NCBI RefSeq assembly: GCF_900112315.1 | Contig: NZ_FOLL01000003.1 | Span: 62,001-126,000, forward strand | Length of the DNA: 64,000 nt | DNA from: Parapedobacter composti | Lineage (GTDB): Bacteria > Bacteroidota > Bacteroidia > Sphingobacteriales > Sphingobacteriaceae | Reading direction: 5' to 3' | Shown: one piece after another, positions 8,571 through 57,165 of the stretch | Numbering within the stretch: position 1 is the first letter of the stretch | Layout: every line of letters starts with the position of its first letter | Made by a program: the position numbers and the translations under genes | Notes under the pieces: generated by a model | Database searches by the model: none | Told to the model about the DNA's origin: nothing | What the model saw: the letters and a program-made list of their open reading frames with translations, nothing else

Positions 8571-8637
8571 ACTCACCGATCACCCACCACCCATCACCCA
8601 CCACAGACCACCGATCACCTCACCCACCACCGATCAC
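8571..8637. repeat. Degenerate CCGATCACC/CCCACCAC repeat (copy 1)
   Basis: About 67 nt made of imperfect units of ACCGATCACC and CACCCACCAC directly after the aldehyde dehydrogenase gene. The gene's TGA stop lies inside the last unit. A similar tract sits at 55749-55806, also after a reverse-strand gene. On the sense strand it is G-rich with several GGTGG and GGTGATCGG units. It may act as a 3' end element. Confidence 0.7.
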
Positions 8638-30837: not shown

Positions 30838-31267
30838 ACTAAAGAATTTGATTTGATTTCCACGGTTCCACCCCGGCAATAAGTAATAATCTTTTTTTTA
30901 TAAAAAGAAGTCTTATTGTTTGTTAGCGTGTTGGTATTGTGAAAAAAATGCGTCCGCTTTTGTTTGGATATCTGGATAAGAGTTTTTTTTAACAGATTAT
31001 TAACATTAATTTAATCGGTTTACCCTGGTTTACAGTCGCTTCAATTTATCCGGAATATGTTTTCCATAGCGGGGTGTATAGTATTTATTGGATGATATTT
31101 GTTAATATTGTGAGGTTTTTATGGGGATTTTTCGCCCCGTTGTTGTGTATAAATTAATCGTAGGCCGCGTTTGAACCTATTTTTAATTTTTATTCAACGG
31201 TAGTTTACACGTTATTCACAGGGTTAGGCACATGGGTGGTAGCCGGTTGTATTCAGCAAGTGTTTAG
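30838..31267. other. AT-rich intergenic region, candidate oriC core
   Basis: This 430-nt gap between divergent nadA and nadB holds no gene. It has AT-rich stretches (30890-30910 and 30980-31016, including a CTTTTT/AAAAAG hairpin) and matches to the DnaA box TTATNCACA: TTATACACA on the minus strand at 31144-31152 and TTATTCACA on the plus strand at 31212-31220, plus TTATCCAGA (8 of 9) on the minus strand at 30971-30979. Two perfect TTATCCACA matches follow inside nadB (31423-31431 and 31765-31773, minus strand). GC skew changes sign around here. This is inference; it could be a plain regulatory region. Confidence 0.45.
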
Positions 31268-32857
31268 ATGATGCATGATGTTGATTTTTTAGTCATCGGC
31301 TCGGGTATCGCCGGACTAAGTTTTGCGTTAAAAGCCGCGGAACACGGTAAAGTGATGATTATCACGAAAGCCAACGAGGATGAATCCAACACTAAATACG
31401 CGCAGGGTGGTGTGGCCGTGGTTGTGGATAAATCAGATTCCTTTGAGAAGCATATTGCTGATACACTGGTAGCTGGCGACGGGCTTTGCGATGTGAATAT
31501 TGTGGAAAACGTCGTTCGGGAAGGGCCTTCGCGCATCCAGGAAATCATTGATTGGGGCACACATTTCGATAAAACAACCAACGGTATGTATGATCTGGCC
31601 AAGGAGGGCGGCCATTCCGAACACCGTGTACTTCATTATAAGGATATTACAGGGTTTGAAATAGAGCGTGCATTGTTAAAAAAGGTACACGAAAACCCGA
31701 ATATAACGCTATTTACGCATTATTTCGCGGTTGACCTGATCACTCAGCATCACCTTGGGGAGTTTGTGGATAAAAGCACGCCAGACATTACTTGCTACGG
31801 TGTATACGTGTTGAATACCGTGGATAATCGTGTGGAAAAGGTGTTGAGTAAGGTTACCGTTATGGCTTCGGGCGGAGCAGGGCATATTTATTCAAGCACC
31901 ACAAATCCTGTAATCGCCACGGGTGATGGCATCGCCATGGTTTACCGGGCGAAGGGGAAAGTGAGAAACATGGAGTTTATCCAATTCCATCCCACAGCGT
32001 TGTATAACCCCGGTGAGTATCCGGCATTCCTGATATCGGAAGCGGTCAGGGGCTTTGGAGGCGTATTGCGCAGACGGAATGGGGAGGCATTTATGGAGGA
32101 GTACGACCATCGGGGTTCCCTCGCTCCGCGGGATATCGTGGCCAGGGCCATCGATGCGGAGATGAAAAAGTCGGGCGATGATTTTGTGTTTCTTGACATT
32201 AGGCATCGTAGTAAAAGCGAATTGTTGAAACACTTTCCGAATATTTACGCCAAGTGCTTGTCCATCGGCATTGATATGGCGCGCGACTACATACCGGTAA
32301 CTCCTGCGGCGCATTACCTTTGCGGCGGGATATTGGTGGATGCCCACGGACGGTCGTCTATTCGTAACCTTTATGCCTGCGGAGAATGTGCTTCTACCGG
32401 GCTTCACGGTGCTAACCGATTGGCATCCAACTCTTTGCTGGAGGCAACGGTATTTGCGCACCGGATTTATGAGGATGCGGTGAGGCAAGTTGGCCAGACA
32501 GTGTTACCGGCGGATATACCGGACTGGGATGACTCTGATACGGTGCTTTCCAACGAAGATATCCTGGTAACACATAACCTGCGGGAGACACAGAAGGTCA
32601 TGAGCGACTATGTTGGCATTGTACGGTCCGATTTCCGGCTGGAGCGCGCAATGCGCCGGTTGGGCCTGCTGTATGACGAGACGGAAGCATTTTATAAGAA
32701 TACCCGGCTGTCCGTAAAGCTCTGCGAATTGCGGAACGTCATCCAGGTGGCTTATTTGGTTATCAAATCGGCCATGGCCCGCAAGGAAAGCCGCGGATTG
32801 CATTATACCACTGACTATCCGGAGCGGTCGGACAAGTTGGTGGATACCGTTTTCTAA
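31268..32857 (+). CDS. nadB: L-aspartate oxidase
   Basis: An FAD enzyme that oxidises L-aspartate to iminoaspartate, the substrate of NadA. The 529-residue length is normal. The FAD-binding motif is VIGSGIAGLSFALKAAE. GGAGHIYSSTTNP, the active-site HPTALYN and the arginine-containing VRGFGGVLRR are all present, as is YACGECASTGLHGANRLASNSLLE. Two ATG codons start it in tandem. Confidence 0.96.
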   Translation: MMHDVDFLVIGSGIAGLSFALKAAEHGKVMIITKANEDESNTKYAQGGVAVVVDKSDSFEKHIADTLVAGDGLCDVNIVENVVREGPSRIQEIIDWGTHFDKTTNGMYDLAKEGGHSEHRVLHYKDITGFEIERALLKKVHENPNITLFTHYFAVDLITQHHLGEFVDKSTPDITCYGVYVLNTVDNRVEKVLSKVTVMASGGAGHIYSSTTNPVIATGDGIAMVYRAKGKVRNMEFIQFHPTALYNPGEYPAFLISEAVRGFGGVLRRRNGEAFMEEYDHRGSLAPRDIVARAIDAEMKKSGDDFVFLDIRHRSKSELLKHFPNIYAKCLSIGIDMARDYIPVTPAAHYLCGGILVDAHGRSSIRNLYACGECASTGLHGANRLASNSLLEATVFAHRIYEDAVRQVGQTVLPADIPDWDDSDTVLSNEDILVTHNLRETQKVMSDYVGIVRSDFRLERAMRRLGLLYDETEAFYKNTRLSVKLCELRNVIQVAYLVIKSAMARKESRGLHYTTDYPERSDKLVDTVF

Positions 32858-35141: not shown

Positions 35142-37001
35142 TTAGCCCATATGTATCATTAAAACCGATATATCTGAGGGCGAAACACCCGAAATACGTG
35201 ACGCCTGGCCTAACGTGCGGGGTTTAACCTTGATTAGCTTTTCACGGGCTTCTTTTGACAACGATACCAAAGCAGTGTAGTCAAAATCCGGATTGATTTC
35301 CTGGTCTTCCATTTTACGCATCTTGTTTACGATTTCCATTTCCTTTTCAAAGTAGCTATCGTATTTTACCTTGATTTCCGCCTGTTCAACAACCTCCCTG
35401 TCAGACCGGTTAATCAAATCGGCTAAGGCAGTATCAGCCATAGCCAGGTCATAGATGCCTACCTGCGGCCGGGTGAGGATCTGGAACAGCCGGGTTTTCT
35501 GTGTAACCGGACTGGATTGCACTCGATGAAGAATTGGATTCAACGTATCCGGTCCGATGGCATTGTCGCGCATATATGCCACCAGTTTATCAGCCGCTTC
35601 CACCTTCTGTTTCACCCGGTCGAGCCGTTCGTCGGATACCAGCCCCAGCTTATGCGCGATGGGTGTAAGCCGGGCGTCCGCGTTATCCTGCCTTAGCAAG
35701 AGGCGGTGTTCTGCGCGGGATGTGAACATCCGGTAGGGCTCTTCCGTACCCTTGGTAACCAAGTCGTCAATAAGTACACCGATATACGATTCGGATCGTT
35801 TAAGGATAAGTTCATGTCCATCATTAATCCGCTGGTGGGCATTTATACCCGCGATGAGTCCCTGGCTTGCCGCTTCTTCATAACCGGTTGTCCCATTGAT
35901 TTGCCCGGCAAAAAAGAGGTGCTTGATGCGGTGTGTCTCCAGCGTTAGATCCAGCTGCATCGGCGGGAAATAATCATACTCGATAGCGTATCCCGGACGG
36001 TACATCTTCGCATTCTCGAATCCGGGTATTTGGCGGAGTGCACGCTGCTGTACGTCTTCCGGTAGGGACGTCGAAAAACCGTTCACATAGATTTCCACGG
36101 TTTTCCATCCTTCGGGTTCAACGAATATCTGATGCCTGTCCCGTTCGGCAAAGCGGTTGATTTTGTCTTCTATGGAAGGACAGTAACGGGGCCCCAGCCC
36201 TTTTATGCGACCGGTGAACATCGGCGATTTCTCAAAGCCTTCTTTCAACGTTTCATGCACCTGTTCGTTGGTATAGGTAATCCAGCAGCACCGTTGTTCC
36301 GTAGGTAACGGCACATCGGTAAAGGAGAAACGCCCCCGTTCGCTATCACCCCATTGTTCCTCCATTTTGCTGTAGTCGAGCGACCGGCCATCCACCCTCG
36401 GCGGCGTACCCGTTTTCATGCGGCCCGCTTCAAATCCAAGGGTAATGAGTTGCTCGGTGAGGCCTGTGGCAGCCTTCTCCCCCGTCCGTCCGCCTCCGAA
36501 CCGTTTTTCGCCGATATGGATAATTCCGTTAAGAAAAGTACCGTTGGTAAGCACTACCGCGTCGCTTTCGATGGACATTCCAAGCGAGGTTACCACGCCG
36601 GCGGCGCGGCCGTTTTTGACGATGATTTCCCTTACGGTGTCTTGCCACATGTCTACATTGGGCAGCGCCTCCAATTGCAGACGCCATTCCTCGGCGAAGC
36701 GCATACGGTCGTTCTGCGTACGTGGACTCCACATTGCCGGTCCTTTGGAACGGTTGAGCATGCGGAATTGGATGGTGGTCTTGTCCGCGATGATGCCCGA
36801 ATAACCCCCCATGGCGTCAATTTCCCGCACAATCTGGCCTTTGGCAACACCCCCCATGGCAGGGTTGCAACTCATCTGAGCAATGGTGCCCATGTTCATG
36901 GTAACCAGTAAGACGGAAGAGCCCAAATTGGCCGCAGCCGCAGCCGCTTCGCAACCTGCATGCCCTCCCCCTACAACGATGATATTATATTTTTTAAACA
37001 T
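35142..37001 (-). CDS. mnmG: tRNA uridine-5-carboxymethylaminomethyl modification enzyme MnmG (GidA)
   Basis: Works with MnmE to modify the wobble uridine of several tRNAs, using FAD and NADH. The 619-residue protein has the N-terminal FAD motif [16 protein letters not shown], the family signatures [17 protein letters not shown] and GTFLNG, the Cys-containing segment [10 protein letters not shown], and a C-terminal helical domain. mnmE is not in the window. mnmG often lies near the replication origin, and two parS-like palindromes sit directly upstream. Confidence 0.96.
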
Positions 37002-37016
37002 GTTTCTTTTATAATA

Positions 37017-37032
37017 TGTTCCACGTGGAACA
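37017..37032. promoter_or_regulatory. parS-like ParB binding site 1
   Basis: TGTTCCACGTGGAACA is a perfect 16-bp palindrome and fits the broadly conserved parS consensus TGTTNCACGTGNAACA; the same sequence is used in Pseudomonas. It lies 16 nt upstream of the mnmG ATG. Confidence 0.8.
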
Positions 37033-37047
37033 CGTAGATTCGATACT

Positions 37048-37065
37048 ACGTTCCACGTGGAACGT
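37048..37065. promoter_or_regulatory. parS-like ParB binding site 2
   Basis: ACGTTCCACGTGGAACGT is an 18-bp perfect palindrome with the parS core GTTCCACGTGGAAC (37050-37063). Only the outer T/A pair of the 16-mer is changed, to C/G. Its centre is 32 bp from the centre of site 1, about three helical turns, and it ends directly at the ABC-F stop codon. Confidence 0.65.
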
Positions 37066-38922
37066 TTAAGCGAATTCGCTTAATTCCATCCAGCGTTCTG
37101 TTTTACGATCGAGTTCGTCGTTTAATTTACTGATATCTGAAGCTATTTTAGCCAGCTCCATCTGGTCGGTGGTAGTGGAGAGGGCTTCGGTGCATTCCTG
37201 TATGCGTTGTTCGAGTTGGGGTATTTCCCTGTCCAAGGTTTCGTATTCTTGGAGTTCTTTATAGCTGAGTTTGTTTTTTTTCTCCGCTACTGGTTTAACC
37301 GGTGCTTTCTGACGCTCGGCAGGTTTTTCTTTACTTTGTTTTTCTTCCTGCTCTTGTTTGTAGGCGGCGTAGTTACCGTTGTATACGGTTATGGTTCCGC
37401 TTCCATCGAAAATAAAAAGCTGATCGGTAAGTCGGTCGAGTAAATACCGATCGTGTGAAACCAATATCAGTACACCGCTGTAATTCGCCAGAAAGGCTTC
37501 CAGCACATTTAGGGTATCGATGTCCAAATCATTGGCCGGCTCGTCCAGAATCAGAAAGTTCGGGTTCTGCATCAAGACGCGCATCAGCTGAAGGCGCTTG
37601 CGTTCGCCACCGCTCAGTTTGTCTACCAACCCGAACTGTTTCTCGGGCGGAAACAGAAACTGCGTAAGCAGTTGGGATGCCGATAGCGAATCCCCGTTGG
37701 CCATCTGGATGTATTCCGCTACGTCTTTAACCACATCAATAACACGCTCACTGCCCTGTAATGCTAATCCGCCCTGCCGGTTATAGCCGAATACGGTGGT
37801 TTCCCCTGCCGTGATGGTACCCTTATCGGGTTGTTCGGAACCGGTTATCAGGTTCAGAAACGTCGATTTTCCGGTACCGTTGCGTCCGGCAAGCCCGATG
37901 CGATCTCCTTTTTTGAATACATACGAGAAGCCGTTGATAAGCTGGCGCCCGTGATAGCCTTTAAATACCTGGTCAATTTCCAGGATTTTGCTGCCCTGAC
38001 GGCTCACTTTGACGCTGAGCTGCACCGTTTGGTTTGCCTGGTACCCTTTGGTTTTTTCCTCCAGATCATAAAACGCATCGATGCGGGCTTTCGACTTCGT
38101 TCCCCGGGCCTGCGGTTGCCTGCGCATCCATTCCAGTTCCTTCCGTAGGAGGTTCCGGTTCCGTTCAAGCTCAACCCCAGCTATTGCTTCTGCTTCGGTT
38201 TTCCGTTCCAGGTAATAACCATAGTTTCCCATATAGGTGGTTAACTTTCCATGATCCAGTTCGCGTATCTGGGTACATACCGCATCCAGAAAGTACCGAT
38301 CGTGCGTTACCAGCAATACGGTCTTCTGCCCTCCTGTGAGCAGCTTCTCCAACCACTCGATGGTTTCGATATCCAGGTGGTTTGTCGGCTCATCGAGGAT
38401 ATAGACATCCGGTTCGTCAATCAGCAGCTTAGCCAAGGCGAGGCGTTTTCGCTGTCCGCCGGACAAGTTAGCAATGGCTTGGGAAAAGTCGGTTATCTGC
38501 AGGCGTGTAAGGATGCTTTTGATGTGGTGTTCATATTCCCAGGCATTCAACGCACTGAGCTGTTCGGTCAGCGCCGATAACCGTGCCGTATCGGCATCCG
38601 GTTCGGCCAGCAACTCTTCGTAGGCCCGGATAAGCCGTTGCTGTTCATTATCGGCATGATAAATGAAATCATTGACCGTTGCGTATTCATGGAACGTAGG
38701 GTCCTGCGGAAGGAATCCGATGCGTATTCCCCGTTCGCGCACGACAGTGCCTTCCAGCGGATCCAGCTCCCCCGCCAAAATGCGTAGCAAGGACGACTTC
38801 CCCGTTCCATTGACACCCACAAGCGCCACCCGTTCGCCTTTCTGCAAGCCGAAGTGCAGGTTTCTGAATAACCACCGGTCGTGGTAGCTATGGCCCAATT
38901 GTTCAGTTGATAAAATACTCAC
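37066..38922 (-). CDS. ABC-F family ATPase (Uup-like)
   Basis: A 618-residue soluble protein with two ABC domains: Walker [12 protein letters not shown] and signature [13 protein letters not shown] in the first, [12 protein letters not shown] and [13 protein letters not shown] in the second. A linker about 280-320 carries the P-site-tRNA interaction motif region, and a C-terminal coiled coil (about 525-618) is typical of Uup. The family acts on the ribosome; Uup is linked to ribosome stress and precise excision. Start is GTG at 38922, inside a GTGA overlap with the upstream gene stop. Confidence 0.92.
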
Positions 38923-39581
38923 ACCAGTTGCTTGATATCCTTCCAATAATATACCCGTACACCCCCCTTGGTCTGCCCGGCCGCCCGGTTCATCGCCCTG
39001 GCCACCCATGCGGCCGGAACGCTCCGGTAGTTGGCTAATCCACCGACTAACAATGCATCAACCACAGTGAAAACACCCTTGGCGAAGGATTCTGCCCAAC
39101 GCTTTTCAGACCGTTCGCCCCTAAGCAGCGACGGACGGAAGATGTGCGTGCGCTCCATTCCCACGGCCACGACATCGCGTTCGGTTTGGCCTTTCATCCG
39201 CAAGTAAAAGTTGCCCGAATCCGCATCGGCACCGACGGCCGAGACCAGGAAGAAAGCCTTGGCACCATTGGCTTTGGTAAGCCTTGCCGCATTCACCGGA
39301 TAGTCGTGATCAATACGGTAATAGTCCTTCAAGTCGGGCGTTTTCTTCCTCGTCGTACCCAGACAGCAAAACACATCATCCGCTACAAGCTGATCTTTTA
39401 TGTTTTCAACCGACTGTAAATCAGCCACTAACTGAATGAGTTTCGCATGCCTAACATCCATCTCCCGCCGTACTACAGCGATGACCTTCCCGTACTCCGG
39501 GTTGTCCAGCAGTTCCCGGAGGAGGTGCCCACCGATTAATCCGGTGGCTCCGAATATGATAGCCGATTTCTTCACTGCCAT
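38919..39581 (-). CDS. TIP30/HTATIP2-like NAD(P)-binding oxidoreductase
   Basis: A 220-residue atypical short-chain reductase with the N-terminal Rossmann motif FGATGLIGGHLL and a CCLGTTRKKT segment followed by a DYYRIDHDY motif, as in TIP30-like proteins. The substrate is not known. It overlaps the ABC-F gene by 4 nt, so both are probably co-translated. A -7 promoter element lies 10 nt upstream of its ATG. Confidence 0.85.
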   Translation of the reverse strand: MAVKKSAIIFGATGLIGGHLLRELLDNPEYGKVIAVVRREMDVRHAKLIQLVADLQSVENIKDQLVADDVFCCLGTTRKKTPDLKDYYRIDHDYPVNAARLTKANGAKAFFLVSAVGADADSGNFYLRMKGQTERDVVAVGMERTHIFRPSLLRGERSEKRWAESFAKGVFTVVDALLVGGLANYRSVPAAWVARAMNRAAGQTKGGVRVYYWKDIKQLV

Positions 39582-39591
39582 TTTATTTGTG

Positions 39592-39599
39592 CAAAAATA
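39592..39599 (-). promoter_or_regulatory. -7 promoter element of the TIP30-like/ABC-F unit
   Basis: TATTTTTG on the minus strand is 10 nt before the ATG at 39581. Confidence 0.45.
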
Positions 39600-39746
39600 C
39601 GGAAAATATATTGGTTCATTATTGATGACCTGTTCATGCGCCGTTTAATAATACCCCGCTTTAAATCGGTCGCGTAGCCGTTGTGGAGCTTTGGAGAACA
39701 AAAACAGAATAAAACTAATATAACGCCTATATATCTTTAACAATTT

Positions 39747-39812
39747 ATCGTATTTCTATCGTATCTTCATCGTATTTCTATCGTATAAATACGATGAGAA
39801 TACGATAATTTA
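39747..39812. repeat. Array of 11-bp phased repeats with an inverted flank
   Basis: Four direct units of ATCGTATTTCT type (39747-39757, 39758-39768, 39769-39779, 39780-39790) are followed by two units in the opposite sense (ACGATGAGAAT at 39791-39801 and ACGATAATTTA at 39802-39812). The exact 11-bp period places each ATCGTAT on the same helix face. The array lies in a 424-nt gap with no gene, between the TIP30-like gene and apaG; nothing else was recognised in that gap. Confidence 0.8.
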
Positions 39813-40005
39813 TGCAAAAACATACGTAGAATCGCTGAACTTGTATTGGTGTTGTTTTGGGTTATTCCAAATACTGTATCAGATAACTGCAGAAAAGGGT
39901 TACTACGGGGTGCTATACCCTACCGGATAGGAGCGCCTCTCAATACCAGCATCTGGCCCGAAGCCGAGGCCGGCAGCCATGAACGCATCGACAAAAAAAA
40001 CAAAG

Positions 40006-40392
40006 CTAATTCAGGCGGTGGGGAGCAATCAAGTCAAACTTGGGGATTTCCACCTCAAAGATATAGCCATCAAACTCGCGCAGCATCTGGTAACTGCCCT
40101 TCATTGTACCCATGTCACTCTTGAGGTTGCAGCCCGAGACGTACTCATGCTGTTCGCCCGGCTCGATGACGGGTTGCTGGCCGACTACCCCTTCCCCTTC
40201 CACCTCCCGGCGGGTGCCGTTGGAGTCGAAGATATACCAATGCCTGCGCAGCAACTGCACGCTGTAATCGCCCAGATTTTCAATGGTGATTCGGTATGCA
40301 AACATGTAATGCTCATTTTCCGGATTCGAGTATTCCGGCTGGTACACCGTTTCGACAGAAACCTTTACGCCATCGGTAATTTGCGTAGCCAT
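40006..40392 (-). CDS. apaG: ApaG domain protein
   Basis: A 128-residue protein with an ApaG/DUF525 beta-sandwich fold of the fibronectin type III kind, seen in YRITIENLGDYSVQLLRRHW, FDSNGTRREVEGEGVVGQQP and MKGSYQMLREFDG. In enterobacteria it is linked to cobalt and magnesium resistance, but the biochemical role is unclear. It starts divergently from the methyltransferase at 40747. Confidence 0.92.
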   Translation of the reverse strand: MATQITDGVKVSVETVYQPEYSNPENEHYMFAYRITIENLGDYSVQLLRRHWYIFDSNGTRREVEGEGVVGQQPVIEPGEQHEYVSGCNLKSDMGTMKGSYQMLREFDGYIFEVEIPKFDLIAPHRLN

Positions 40393-54419: not shown

Positions 54420-55748
54420 ATGGCGTCATCCCGTAAAATTTTCGTTTTGGACACGTCGGTGATCTTATACGATCACAATGCGCTCCACAATTTCCAAGAG
54501 CATGACGTGGCTATTCCCATACAAGTACTGGAAGAATTGGACAACCTGAAGGGAGGTAACGAAACCCGGAATTTCGAAGCGCGTAGTTTTATCAGGCTGA
54601 TTGACGGCCTTGCCCGGAAGAAGCTGATTAACCAGTGGGTGCACCTGAATGGCCGTACCAGCGGTAAGTTCAGGGTGATCCTCTCCGACAGGCCGCAGCG
54701 GGCTGACGCCGTGCGCATCTTCGGGAACGAGAAATACGACCATCACATTATCAATGCGGCGCTGGTGCTGATGGAGGAAAATCCCGACAAAAAAGTTATC
54801 CTGGTATCAAAAGATATCTGCCTACGCCTTAAAGCGAAGGCGCTGAACCTGCTGGCAGAAGATTACGAGACGGGCAAAATCAAGAATGTGGATGAGCTTT
54901 ATACCGGAAAGACCACGCAACGCGATGTGCCCGCCGAACTGATGGACGCTCTGCGGGAAAAAAACACCGCGCCGGCGGAAAGCTTGGCCTTGAATCACAC
55001 GGGTGCTAACCAGTTTTATGTGCTGAAACATCACCGGCGTATCGTCCATGCTTTTTACGATAAACGTTCGCATACACTGACCACGGTACCCACGGCCCCG
55101 GTTTTCCGTATCAAACCGCGGAATCCGGAGCAGGCGTTTGCGCTCCATGCCCTGTTGAATCCCGATATCCGTCTGGTGAGCATACAGGGCAATGCCGGCA
55201 CCGGAAAAACGCTGCTTGCGTTGGCCAGTGCGCTGGAACAGCGGAAAAGCTACCGGCAGATTTACATCACTCGCCCCGTCATCCCGCTGAGCAACCGTGA
55301 AATCGGCTTTTTGCCGGGCGATGCCAAATCAAAGACAGATCCGTTTCTGGCTCCGATATGGGACAACATCCGGTTTATCAAGGAGCAGTATGCCGATGAC
55401 GATAAAATGCTCGAAAAGATTGACGAGCTTATCGCAACGGAGAAAATTGCCATTGCTCCGCTTGCATTTATCCGGGGGCGTACGCTGACCAAGATTTTCT
55501 TTATCGTAGACGAGGCCCAGAACCTGACGCCCCATGAAATCAAAACCATCATTTCCCGGGCAGGCGAGCACACTAAGATCGTGTTTACGGGCGATATCTA
55601 CCAGATTGACACCCCATATTTGGATGCGGAAAGCAACGGCCTCTCCTACCTGATTGAAAATGTGAAGAACCATCCCCTATATGCCCATATCACCCTGCAA
55701 AAAGGCGAACGCAGTGAGCTGGCCAACCTCGCCAATGACTTGCTGTAA
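54420..55748 (+). CDS. PIN domain-PhoH family ATPase
   Basis: A 442-residue fusion of an N-terminal PIN ribonuclease domain (about 5-145, with VLDTSVILYD and LEELD acidic residues) and a C-terminal PhoH P-loop ATPase (about 230-442, with Walker A GNAGTGKTLLA and Walker B FIVDEAQN). PIN-PhoH proteins unwind and cleave RNA in other bacteria. The start follows an AT-rich intergenic region; a TAATTTTA element 3 nt before the ATG is one base off the -7 consensus. Confidence 0.93.
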   Translation: MASSRKIFVLDTSVILYDHNALHNFQEHDVAIPIQVLEELDNLKGGNETRNFEARSFIRLIDGLARKKLINQWVHLNGRTSGKFRVILSDRPQRADAVRIFGNEKYDHHIINAALVLMEENPDKKVILVSKDICLRLKAKALNLLAEDYETGKIKNVDELYTGKTTQRDVPAELMDALREKNTAPAESLALNHTGANQFYVLKHHRRIVHAFYDKRSHTLTTVPTAPVFRIKPRNPEQAFALHALLNPDIRLVSIQGNAGTGKTLLALASALEQRKSYRQIYITRPVIPLSNREIGFLPGDAKSKTDPFLAPIWDNIRFIKEQYADDDKMLEKIDELIATEKIAIAPLAFIRGRTLTKIFFIVDEAQNLTPHEIKTIISRAGEHTKIVFTGDIYQIDTPYLDAESNGLSYLIENVKNHPLYAHITLQKGERSELANLANDLL

Positions 55749-55806
55749 CCCCCGATCACCGTCCACCGATCACCGACCCCCGATCACCGTCCACCGACCC
55801 CCATCA
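55749..55806. repeat. Degenerate CCGATCACC/CCGTCCACC repeat (copy 2)
   Basis: The whole 55-nt gap between the convergent PhoH and RsmF-like genes is made of units such as CCCCCGATCACCGTCCA, and reaches the TGA stop of the RsmF-like gene. It matches the tract at 8571-8637 in unit type and in its position after a reverse-strand gene. Confidence 0.7.
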
Positions 55807-57165
55807 CATCGTAGCAATCCGCCACTCTTTGGGATAATAATTGTTAATGCGGTTAGGCAGCAGTTTCATCCAGCCCAGTGCCGCCCCCCGGTAGGTGGCC
55901 AGCGTCCAGCCGCTGAGCTTCTGTGTATTGACCGACGGTGGAACATTGCCCTTGCGCAGGTATTCCAGCGCCATTTCTTTGTCGAGCGCGACTGTGGGCA
56001 GCCCCTGATGCCGGGCGTTGCTCAGGGCCAGGTGATGACTTGGGATGATGTCGCCCTTGGCAAGCCGCCCTACTCGGGTGCCCGCGTTTCGCAGGTAGAG
56101 CACACGTTGCAGGATACGTAGATCGGCTTCCCGGCCTTTGGGCAGCACGCATAGTTCATCGCCCACGGAAAAGGTGAAGTAGCGATGGCTGTCGGCAACC
56201 CAGCGCTGCAGTTCTTTGGGAGGGCGTGGGATATCGGCCTTGATATGGCGATCAAAAGATGGCTGGTCAGCGGTTTTACGGAACGCTGCCAGGAAAAAAC
56301 CTTCGCCCCGAAGCTTGTGTGGATAAAAGCGGTACCCGGGGCATGCATGTTTATCCGAGGCGGTCTGCTCGATTCCCCAGTCGGCATCGATGGGTATGGC
56401 CACAGGTTCCACCCCCTGCGTTTCGCAGAGCCAGTCGGCAATCTGCTCATTTTCTTCCACGGAATATGAACAGGTGGAATACAGCAGGAATCCTCCCGCG
56501 CGGAGGGCCGGAAGGCTATCGGCCAGAATTCGCCGCTGCCGTTCGCTGCATAGCTGCACGGCGGCTTCCGACCACTCATTGATCGACGCGGCATCCTTGC
56601 GGAACATCCCTGAGCCGGAGCAGGGGGCATCCACCAGCATAAGGTCGACATAGCCCGGCAGATGGCGGAAAGCAGACGGGTCGTTATTGGTAACGACGGT
56701 GTTGGCATGCCCCCAACGCACCATGTTGTCCACCAAAATGTTTACGCGGCTTTTAATAAGTTCATTGGCAATAAGCAGGCTGTCGGCATGTAGGTAAGTG
56801 CTGAGCAAGGTGCTTTTACCCCCCGGCGCGGCACACAGGTCGAGTGCCACCAACGGTTGTCCGTCCAGCGCCAGTGCTTTGACCGCATGGGCGATGAACA
56901 TCGAAGAGGCTTCCTGCACGTAGTAACAGCCGGCATGGAAGAGCGGATCCAGCGTAAACACCGGGCGCTCCGGCAAGTAAAAGCCGGTATCGCACCACGG
57001 TACGTGCTCAAGGGCCGTTGTGTCCGGCCCTTGGTTTTTCGCTGGGTTTATACGGATGGAGGTGACGCCTTCTTCCTGCCTGTGGGCAGTTTCAAAGGCG
57101 GCGGTATCAAATCCGGCGAACGTACCCAGTCGGCGAACAAGTTCAGGGGGGATAATATTGCTCAT
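55804..57165 (-). CDS. RsmF-like rRNA/tRNA m5C methyltransferase
   Basis: A 453-residue SAM-dependent RNA cytosine-5 methyltransferase (Nol1/Nop2/Sun). The SAM motif is DLCAAPGGKSTLL. The two catalytic cysteines lie in VDAPCSGSGMF and YSTCSYSVEENE. A C-terminal PUA-like region (about 300-453) matches RsmF, which in E. coli methylates C1407 of 16S rRNA. The exact target is inferred. Confidence 0.9.
   Translation of the reverse strand: MSNIIPPELVRRLGTFAGFDTAAFETAHRQEEGVTSIRINPAKNQGPDTTALEHVPWCDTGFYLPERPVFTLDPLFHAGCYYVQEASSMFIAHAVKALALDGQPLVALDLCAAPGGKSTLLSTYLHADSLLIANELIKSRVNILVDNMVRWGHANTVVTNNDPSAFRHLPGYVDLMLVDAPCSGSGMFRKDAASINEWSEAAVQLCSERQRRILADSLPALRAGGFLLYSTCSYSVEENEQIADWLCETQGVEPVAIPIDADWGIEQTASDKHACPGYRFYPHKLRGEGFFLAAFRKTADQPSFDRHIKADIPRPPKELQRWVADSHRYFTFSVGDELCVLPKGREADLRILQRVLYLRNAGTRVGRLAKGDIIPSHHLALSNARHQGLPTVALDKEMALEYLRKGNVPPSVNTQKLSGWTLATYRGAALGWMKLLPNRINNYYPKEWRIATM

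Follow-up and report, generated by a model that had tools for sequence, protein, structure and literature searches.

The iterons of plasmid origins are short direct repeats at helical spacing. REP and REPIN sequences with their RAYTs pair a gene having its own cis-sequence type with orphan copies of that sequence dispersed over the genome, and the heptad arrays of omega/parS on plasmid pSM19035, in which the heptads are contiguous and without spacers, serve as both operator and centromere. The PhoP protein of M. tuberculosis recognizes a 7-bp motif with a strict 4-bp spacer, its subunits stacking in tandem; it binds cooperatively to two, three or four motifs, with higher affinity for three and four in tandem, and all known OmpR/PhoB sites are described in that report as direct repeats (PMC4832192).

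Here we analysed a stretch of 64,000 nucleotides of the Parapedobacter composti chromosome (the window), which holds a block of ATCGTAT heptads. Our comparison places the block among arrays in phase with the helix, of the kind found just upstream of the promoters of genes for DUF6266 (Pfam PF19781), a protein family of unknown function, and shows that these arrays share a design of 7-bp units and 4-bp spacers, typically with four direct units and one facing unit. The window copy holds the place and the orientation of the array of a DUF6266 gene pair in two related species, the genes being missing here. On balance, and with moderate confidence, we read the window block as an orphan operator-like array of the DUF6266 type that is probably bound cooperatively by a protein acting in trans, a reading drawn from sequence comparison.

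The array consists of four direct and two reversed ATCGTAT units in 11-bp steps within each arm (Table 1), as the first-pass annotation had described; all six heptads were located at 39747-39806. They make up six of the 16 ATCGTAT/ATACGAT words in the 64-kb window. The direct heptads match in 28 of 28 letters and no unit precedes the first, so that there are four direct units and no fifth, and an ATACGAT facing unit lies 2 bp past the fourth direct unit, within the 2-3 bp by which the family is defined. When up to one mismatch was allowed, the pair pattern ATCGTATNNNNATCGTAT had four matches in the window, all within the array, and none in 100 dinucleotide shuffles. TRF assigned the array a score of 66 and a period of 11. 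Two mostly intergenic stretches elsewhere in the window are built of other 7-bp units and represent a further type of dispersed repeat with a short period in the P. composti genome (Table 1).

Table 1 Features of the window (window positions).
Feature	Position	Strand	Remark
ACCGATC/ACCGTCC-like 7-bp units, first stretch	8574..8637		CACCGATCACC...
DnaA-box cluster	31144..31839		7 sites in 0.7 kb (TTATCCACA, <=1 mismatch; two exact)
mnmG/gidA-like gene	35142..37001	-	name presumed
Two GTTCCACGTGGAAC palindromes	37018..37063		at 37018 and 37050, 32 bp apart
NAD(P)-binding oxidoreductase (PF13460)	38919..39581	-	left neighbour of array
Promoter-like block of oxidoreductase gene	39591..39614	-	TATTTTTG; congeners alike by eye
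Direct unit 1, ATCGTAT	39747..39753	+	
Direct unit 2, ATCGTAT	39758..39764	+	
Direct unit 3, ATCGTAT	39769..39775	+	
Direct unit 4, ATCGTAT	39780..39786	+	
Dyad centre, AA	39787..39788		2 bp
Facing unit 1 (ATACGAT on +)	39789..39795	-	
Facing unit 2 (ATACGAT on +)	39800..39806	-	not kept in all relatives
Stretch from array to apaG stop	39807..40005		G005 and G006 hold a DUF6266 gene pair here
ApaG-type protein	40006..40392	-	right neighbour of array; identity presumed
ACCGATC/ACCGTCC-like 7-bp units, second stretch	55748..55807		

The genome from which the window was taken (G000) holds five ATCGTAT arrays, on contigs C23, C31, C32 (the window), C38 and C49. A sixth exact ATCGTAT pair, on C44, lies within an ORF and was taken as chance; C44 also carries an 11-bp array of ATCTTAT units that is not known to adjoin a DUF6266 gene. 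Regular ATCGTAT arrays number at least 14, in five of nine Parapedobacter genomes including that of P. composti, a lower bound that leaves out about a dozen one-mismatch places in G002-G005, G007 and G008. The remaining one-mismatch places are single pairs only, with the exception of one degenerate array. All 14 regular arrays have exactly four direct units and no fifth, with 26 to 28 of 28 letters, and facing unit 1 keeps 7/7 letters in 13 of them. The dyad centre measures 3 bp in 12 and 2 bp in the window array and one other. The fifteenth array (G005:C23, L110:3882-3960 in minus-strand coordinates) is a degenerate orphan that by eye has three direct units and one 12-bp step, and it reaches 21/28 letters at best. 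The exact core ATCGTATN4ATCGTATN(1-5)ATACGAT was found in Parapedobacter only, both among 84,980 species of the GTDB collection (seven named contigs from four species) and in a sample of the family (5 of 399 genomes). Absence from all relatives combined with variable copy number had been put forward as the mark of a neutral slippage tract; neither holds, with arrays present in five of nine genomes and four direct units at 14 of the 15 array sites inspected, and on that unit count we reject such a tract.

A long hairpin had also been proposed. Folded as single-stranded DNA, the array is predicted to reach -14.4 kcal/mol, where shuffles average -5.77 (z -5.05; equalled by 0 of 200 shuffles), and the hairpin thus stands as a computation. 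It does not stand as a conserved feature: just 7 of the 14 regular arrays have a facing unit 2 that is intact or one letter short (6 or 7 of 7 matches). This strong predicted hairpin is what would speak for an RNA element, either a transcribed hairpin or a bidirectional terminator, but the second facing unit is not kept, DUF6266 genes have their arrays on the upstream side of the promoter, no T-run follows the window array, and Rfam returned for that array only three miRNA matches, each under the family threshold and taken as chance. We consider an RNA element very improbable.

The first-pass annotation had likened the array to iterons and linked it to the origin region, 2.7 kb from parS-like sites. 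The distance is correct. The two palindromes of Table 1, likely chromosomal parS sites, stand just upstream of the gene that we take to be mnmG/gidA-like, and the lowest point of the cumulative GC skew falls at 28-30 kb of the window, with a second dip at 38-40 kb. An iteron serving replication or partition at the chromosome origin would suit the skew and the nearby parS-like sites; however, the same arrays occur at four other loci of the P. composti genome and, in relatives, at loci that are not alike, the flanking ORFs as read by eye include no recognized initiator, and the DnaA boxes cluster about 8 kb from the array, where they form the likely better oriC candidate of the window. With ParB- and DnaA-type sites elsewhere, the origin link was abandoned, and an iteron function appears extremely improbable.

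To which genes such arrays belong was evident from DUF6266, for which we obtained 86 matches in the nine Parapedobacter genomes. For lag scoring 61 of these were used, with 22 second genes of tandem pairs and three contig-end or fragmentary matches omitted. Lag 11 was the best autocorrelation lag in 51 of the 61 upstream regions, and 55 of the 61 reached a lag-11 score of at least 16/24, whereas among the controls 10 of 700 tiles did so, as did 9 of 311 regions upstream of ORFs; these controls were drawn from the P. composti genome only and include the window array, the C49 array and one DUF6266 upstream region. The ATCTTAT array of C44 also falls within these controls and counts against our preferred reading. 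Beyond the genus, lag 10, 11, 20 or 22 was best or tied in 19 of 25 loci of the same family (an uncontrolled count with 20 lags compared), three of the 19 scoring only 15, and of 25 loci in families elsewhere in the phylum, 13 had lag 10 or 11 as best or tied at 17/24 or more (likewise uncontrolled; one contig-end locus omitted). Because lag 10 is also best or tied outside the genus, 10-bp arrays exist besides the 11-bp ones. Between -130 and -10 relative to the start codon, 52 of 83 DUF6266 genes have the motif TAnnTTTG, which we take to be the Bacteroidota promoter motif, against a shuffled mean of 4.0, and in all 42 scorable genes the array lies upstream of this motif. The 83 genes comprise 54 of the 55 loci with full flanks (L127 is not among them) and 29 more, two 99-base contig-end fragments of G008 being omitted. 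The earlier statement that no gene explains the array therefore fails at the level of the family, in which DUF6266 genes carry such arrays upstream.

Two observations on particular array types may be added. In the P. composti genome, a degenerate relative of the array with ATTCGTAT-like units, by another DUF6266 gene (G000:C20:77955; L112:4034), has 24/28 letters, and the highest other value in 400 kb of that genome, the C49 array aside, is 19. In upstream regions of a GC-rich class of DUF6266 genes (L125, L134, L154 and L244), a distal 11-bp array is joined by a proximal one of 10-bp period (e.g. TGCCAATTAC), both of them ahead of the promoter, so that one control region has two periods.

The sequence of the units can differ from one DUF6266 gene to another, and we compared it with the proteins for 59 of the 83 genes, those whose 11-bp arrays passed the score limit. 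The more alike two DUF6266 proteins are, the more alike their units tend to be (rho 0.234; the largest value in 2000 permutations was 0.140, so that none equalled it). Below 40% protein identity, mean unit similarity is 0.25 to 0.26, whether or not the genes share a genome; above 50% it is 0.46 to 0.58. Moreover, unlike DUF6266 paralogues of one genome carry unlike units. Thus, unit sequence follows the DUF6266 clade and not the genome, and this co-variation therefore speaks against a single regulator reading all arrays. It does not by itself make DUF6266 the reader, because gene and array are inherited together. An ordinary regulator of the OmpR/PhoB or another type, encoded elsewhere and controlling DUF6266 together with other genes, would fit the position of the arrays upstream of promoters and the resemblance of motif and strict spacer to those of PhoP, but the units track the clade and differ between paralogues of one genome, so that one such regulator cannot serve all of them, and the facing unit kept in 13 of 14 arrays is at odds with the known sites, all described as direct repeats (PMC4832192). 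We regard this explanation as unlikely.

The window array sits 165 bp from the start of the oxidoreductase gene, whose promoter-like block was called with a promoter consensus that we assumed; on the other side of the array, the gene that we take to be apaG ends 199 bp away. By eye, relatives have at this locus the same array design with another unit sequence, namely GGTCGTC-type units in G005 and G006, ATAGGGA in G004, CTACTGG in G003 and GTGGACT in G001; no array was seen by eye here in G002 and G007, and no orthologous locus was found in G008. The locus runs, in both G005 and G006, from the oxidoreductase (minus) through the array and two DUF6266 genes (plus) to apaG (minus). The window shows the identical order and array orientation, but without the DUF6266 pair. 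A profile search of frames of at least 40 residues detected no DUF6266 remnant beside the window array, and no decayed promoter was seen by eye to its right; since it has no DUF6266 match next to it, the array was classed as an orphan and not as part of a DUF6266 operon. Among the points against our preferred reading is that the GGTCGTC units of these gene-bearing relatives are related to, but different from, the units of the window.

Two further loci occur in both versions. At the oxyR locus an array with a DUF6266 pair is found in G000 and G002 and the array alone in G004, while at the carA/eno locus G003 and G007 have array and pair and G002 the array alone (the names of these neighbour genes are presumed from their sequences). 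We read orphan loci as loci that lost their DUF6266 genes; as an alternative to loss, genes may have been inserted at a pre-existing array. Further points against our preferred reading are that orphans and cognate genes are not always found together: G005 has ATCGTAT orphans but no DUF6266 gene of the ATCGTAT type; in G001, whose sole DUF6266 gene shows no such array, a GTGGACT array stands at the apaG locus; and G008 has the cognate ATCGTAT-type gene with no orphan found. Likewise, the neighbours of the orphans share no evident function and form no coherent regulon, and the C38 orphan lies between convergent genes. In G003, a 251-amino-acid protein adjoining a CTACTGG 11-bp array (L118:697-1452) has a DUF6266-like N-terminal motif and no Pfam match, so that arrays of this layout may not be restricted to DUF6266 in the strict sense.

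To what extent orphans are maintained is indicated by their pairwise identities. Among the 10 regular orphans these are 95% in the heptads, 59% in the spacers and 46% in the left flank, and across all 14 arrays (the 10 orphans and four linked to genes) they are 96%, 59% and 46%, respectively. That heptads are kept and spacers are not bears out the earlier proposal of a signal that is specific in sequence and confined to a single helical face. For the orthologous orphans G002:C6 and G004:C23, 28/28 heptad letters are shared compared to 8/12 in the spacers and 19/38 in the flank. All 10 regular orphans reach at least 26/28 heptad letters, and the degenerate G005:C23 array does not. Array detection requires near-perfect adjacent heptads and so favours conserved arrays; a simulation that includes this bias and assumes one ancestral unit gave a neutral chance of 4-12% per array of reaching at least 26/28 with comparable spacer divergence. 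These data support the view that most orphans are under constraint, as judged from their letters. Some orphans do decay, and unit count is not fixed everywhere, as is seen from G005:C23.

Arrays of the ATAGGG type behave in a similar manner. There are 24 such sites in seven of the nine genomes; of the 20 examined, nine adjoin a DUF6266 gene and 11 have none within 1.5 kb. The two genomes without sites, G001 and G007, have no ATAGGG-type DUF6266 gene, and the sites are confined to the seven genomes that have one. Some ATAGGG orphans are shared, with the same neighbours, by two or three species, as judged by eye from the beginnings of the neighbouring proteins: before a nitrilase-like gene in G000:C30, G004:C16 and G002:C7, and as the further shared pairs G005:C16 with G006:C5 and G005:C18 with G006:C34. 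The G000:C30/G004:C16 pair differs at 1/42 positions in the array versus 23/158 in the flanks. In the pair G005:C18 and G006:C34 (L318 and L323) the orphan stands, in both species, beside an FMN-reductase-like gene adjoining a ParA-like gene.

These observations bear on two further explanations. According to the first, the window array is a plain relic, functionless since the DUF6266 genes were lost. The existence of three loci in gene-bearing and orphan versions, the lack of a coherent set of neighbour genes and the visible degeneration of G005:C23 are all in line with this, but 10 orphans have kept their heptads against spacers and flanks, orphans are common to several species, and the array of the G000:C30/G004:C16 pair has changed far less than its flanks. 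We view a relic as a serious though rather unlikely explanation. According to the second, the array belongs to a small mobile or copy-spread element of the REP/MITE kind, with DUF6266 as helper and orphans as non-autonomous copies, which would explain why a genome has several arrays of one type scattered over unrelated places and just one linked gene or a few, a logic akin to that of REP/RAYT. Yet the copies are alike in heptads and not in spacers or flanks, unlike recent copies; relatives hold the whole operon at three orphan loci; some orphans are orthologous between species; and the linked DUF6266 gene has no transposase-family match. A mobile element thus seems improbable.

In our literature searches we found no paper naming DUF6266 and none describing such phased arrays. 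The two DUF6266 proteins of contig C31 have PF19781 as their sole Pfam match and match no transposase family. For four DUF6266 proteins, PADLOC and NCBIfam gave nothing and the best PHROG E-value was 0.031. An AlphaFold2 model, based on only four sequences (mean pLDDT 74), consists of two helices and a C-terminal fibronectin-III-like sandwich; the latter gave a best Z of 11.8 with an rmsd of 2.1 over 91 aligned residues. Foldseek returned no match for the model at E <=0.001. No recognized DNA-binding fold was seen in it, with the N-terminal 36 residues, which contain the most conserved motif, modelled at a pLDDT <50; modelled separately, the N-terminal 110 residues reached a pLDDT of 49. Among 72,556 records of plasmids and 50,697 of phages, a tblastn search with one DUF6266 protein (L208) found no match, on which basis a phage or plasmid origin was rejected, though two short IMG/VR contigs carry DUF6266. 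On these contigs (L234:810-2757 and L235:290-2253) the DUF6266 gene is followed by small holin-like, lysozyme-like and spanin-like lipoprotein-looking genes, and L235 also has cas1- and cas2-looking genes; DUF6266 may open a lysis-type operon. In the GC-rich class, too, the DUF6266 gene often precedes genes of phage-lysis look.

Taken together, our preferred reading, an orphan DUF6266-type array, leads to the following model. Because the geometry equals that of M. tuberculosis PhoP, we infer one subunit per helical turn: each heptad would be contacted by one protein subunit, and adjacent subunits would assemble cooperatively along a single helical face as far as the dyad, where they would meet a subunit of opposite sense. 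Such an assembly would control the adjacent promoter. The orphan would be served in trans, for example from the sole ATCGTAT-type DUF6266 locus of the P. composti genome on contig C31, with DUF6266 itself as one candidate binder or another regulator in its place, and its target may be the divergent oxidoreductase gene. It is probably still bound, because the heptads of most orphans are kept while spacers and flanks drift.

The clade-specific signals before DUF6266 genes suggest an undescribed DNA-reading system. More speculatively, DUF6266 or its tandem partner might represent a novel group of proteins that recognize specific DNA sequences and polymerize one subunit per turn on clade-specific arrays, each paralogue reading its own heptad, so that many copies could act in one genome without cross-talk and orphans would be extra sites in trans; we hold this extension to be possible but doubtful. 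DUF6266, a family of no known function, gains a concrete candidate for a molecular partner in a phased array that co-varies with the protein, and the many array copies and many unit sequences form a natural data set for a recognition code. A repeat near the origin that looked unexplained becomes part of a recurring, putatively regulatory layout of Bacteroidota chromosomes.

Compared to the systems described at the outset, the array shares with plasmid-origin iterons short direct repeats at helical spacing, but it is present at five dispersed loci of its own genome with no initiator seen, and its linked forms lie upstream of promoters. As in REP/RAYT, a DUF6266 gene has its own array type and orphan copies are dispersed; unlike REP/RAYT, there is no transposase match to DUF6266 and no linked Y1 transposase, copies are few, the array is long and phased as opposed to a short hairpin, and its spacers are not homogenized. 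Units of 7 bp in direct and inverted orientation are common to the array and to omega/parS of pSM19035, the subject of PMC9499535, whereas the window array has 4-bp spacers, is chromosomal and adjoins no ParA or omega genes. It departs from OmpR/PhoB operators in combining four direct units with a kept facing unit, in units that differ by DUF6266 clade, in having no response regulator beside the window array and in orphans retained at unlike loci. With these operators it nevertheless shares the 7-bp motif, the 4-bp spacer, one site per helical turn and the promoter position, and, as for PhoP, its tandem units extend to three and four, with cooperative binding known for PhoP and proposed here for the array (PMC4832192).
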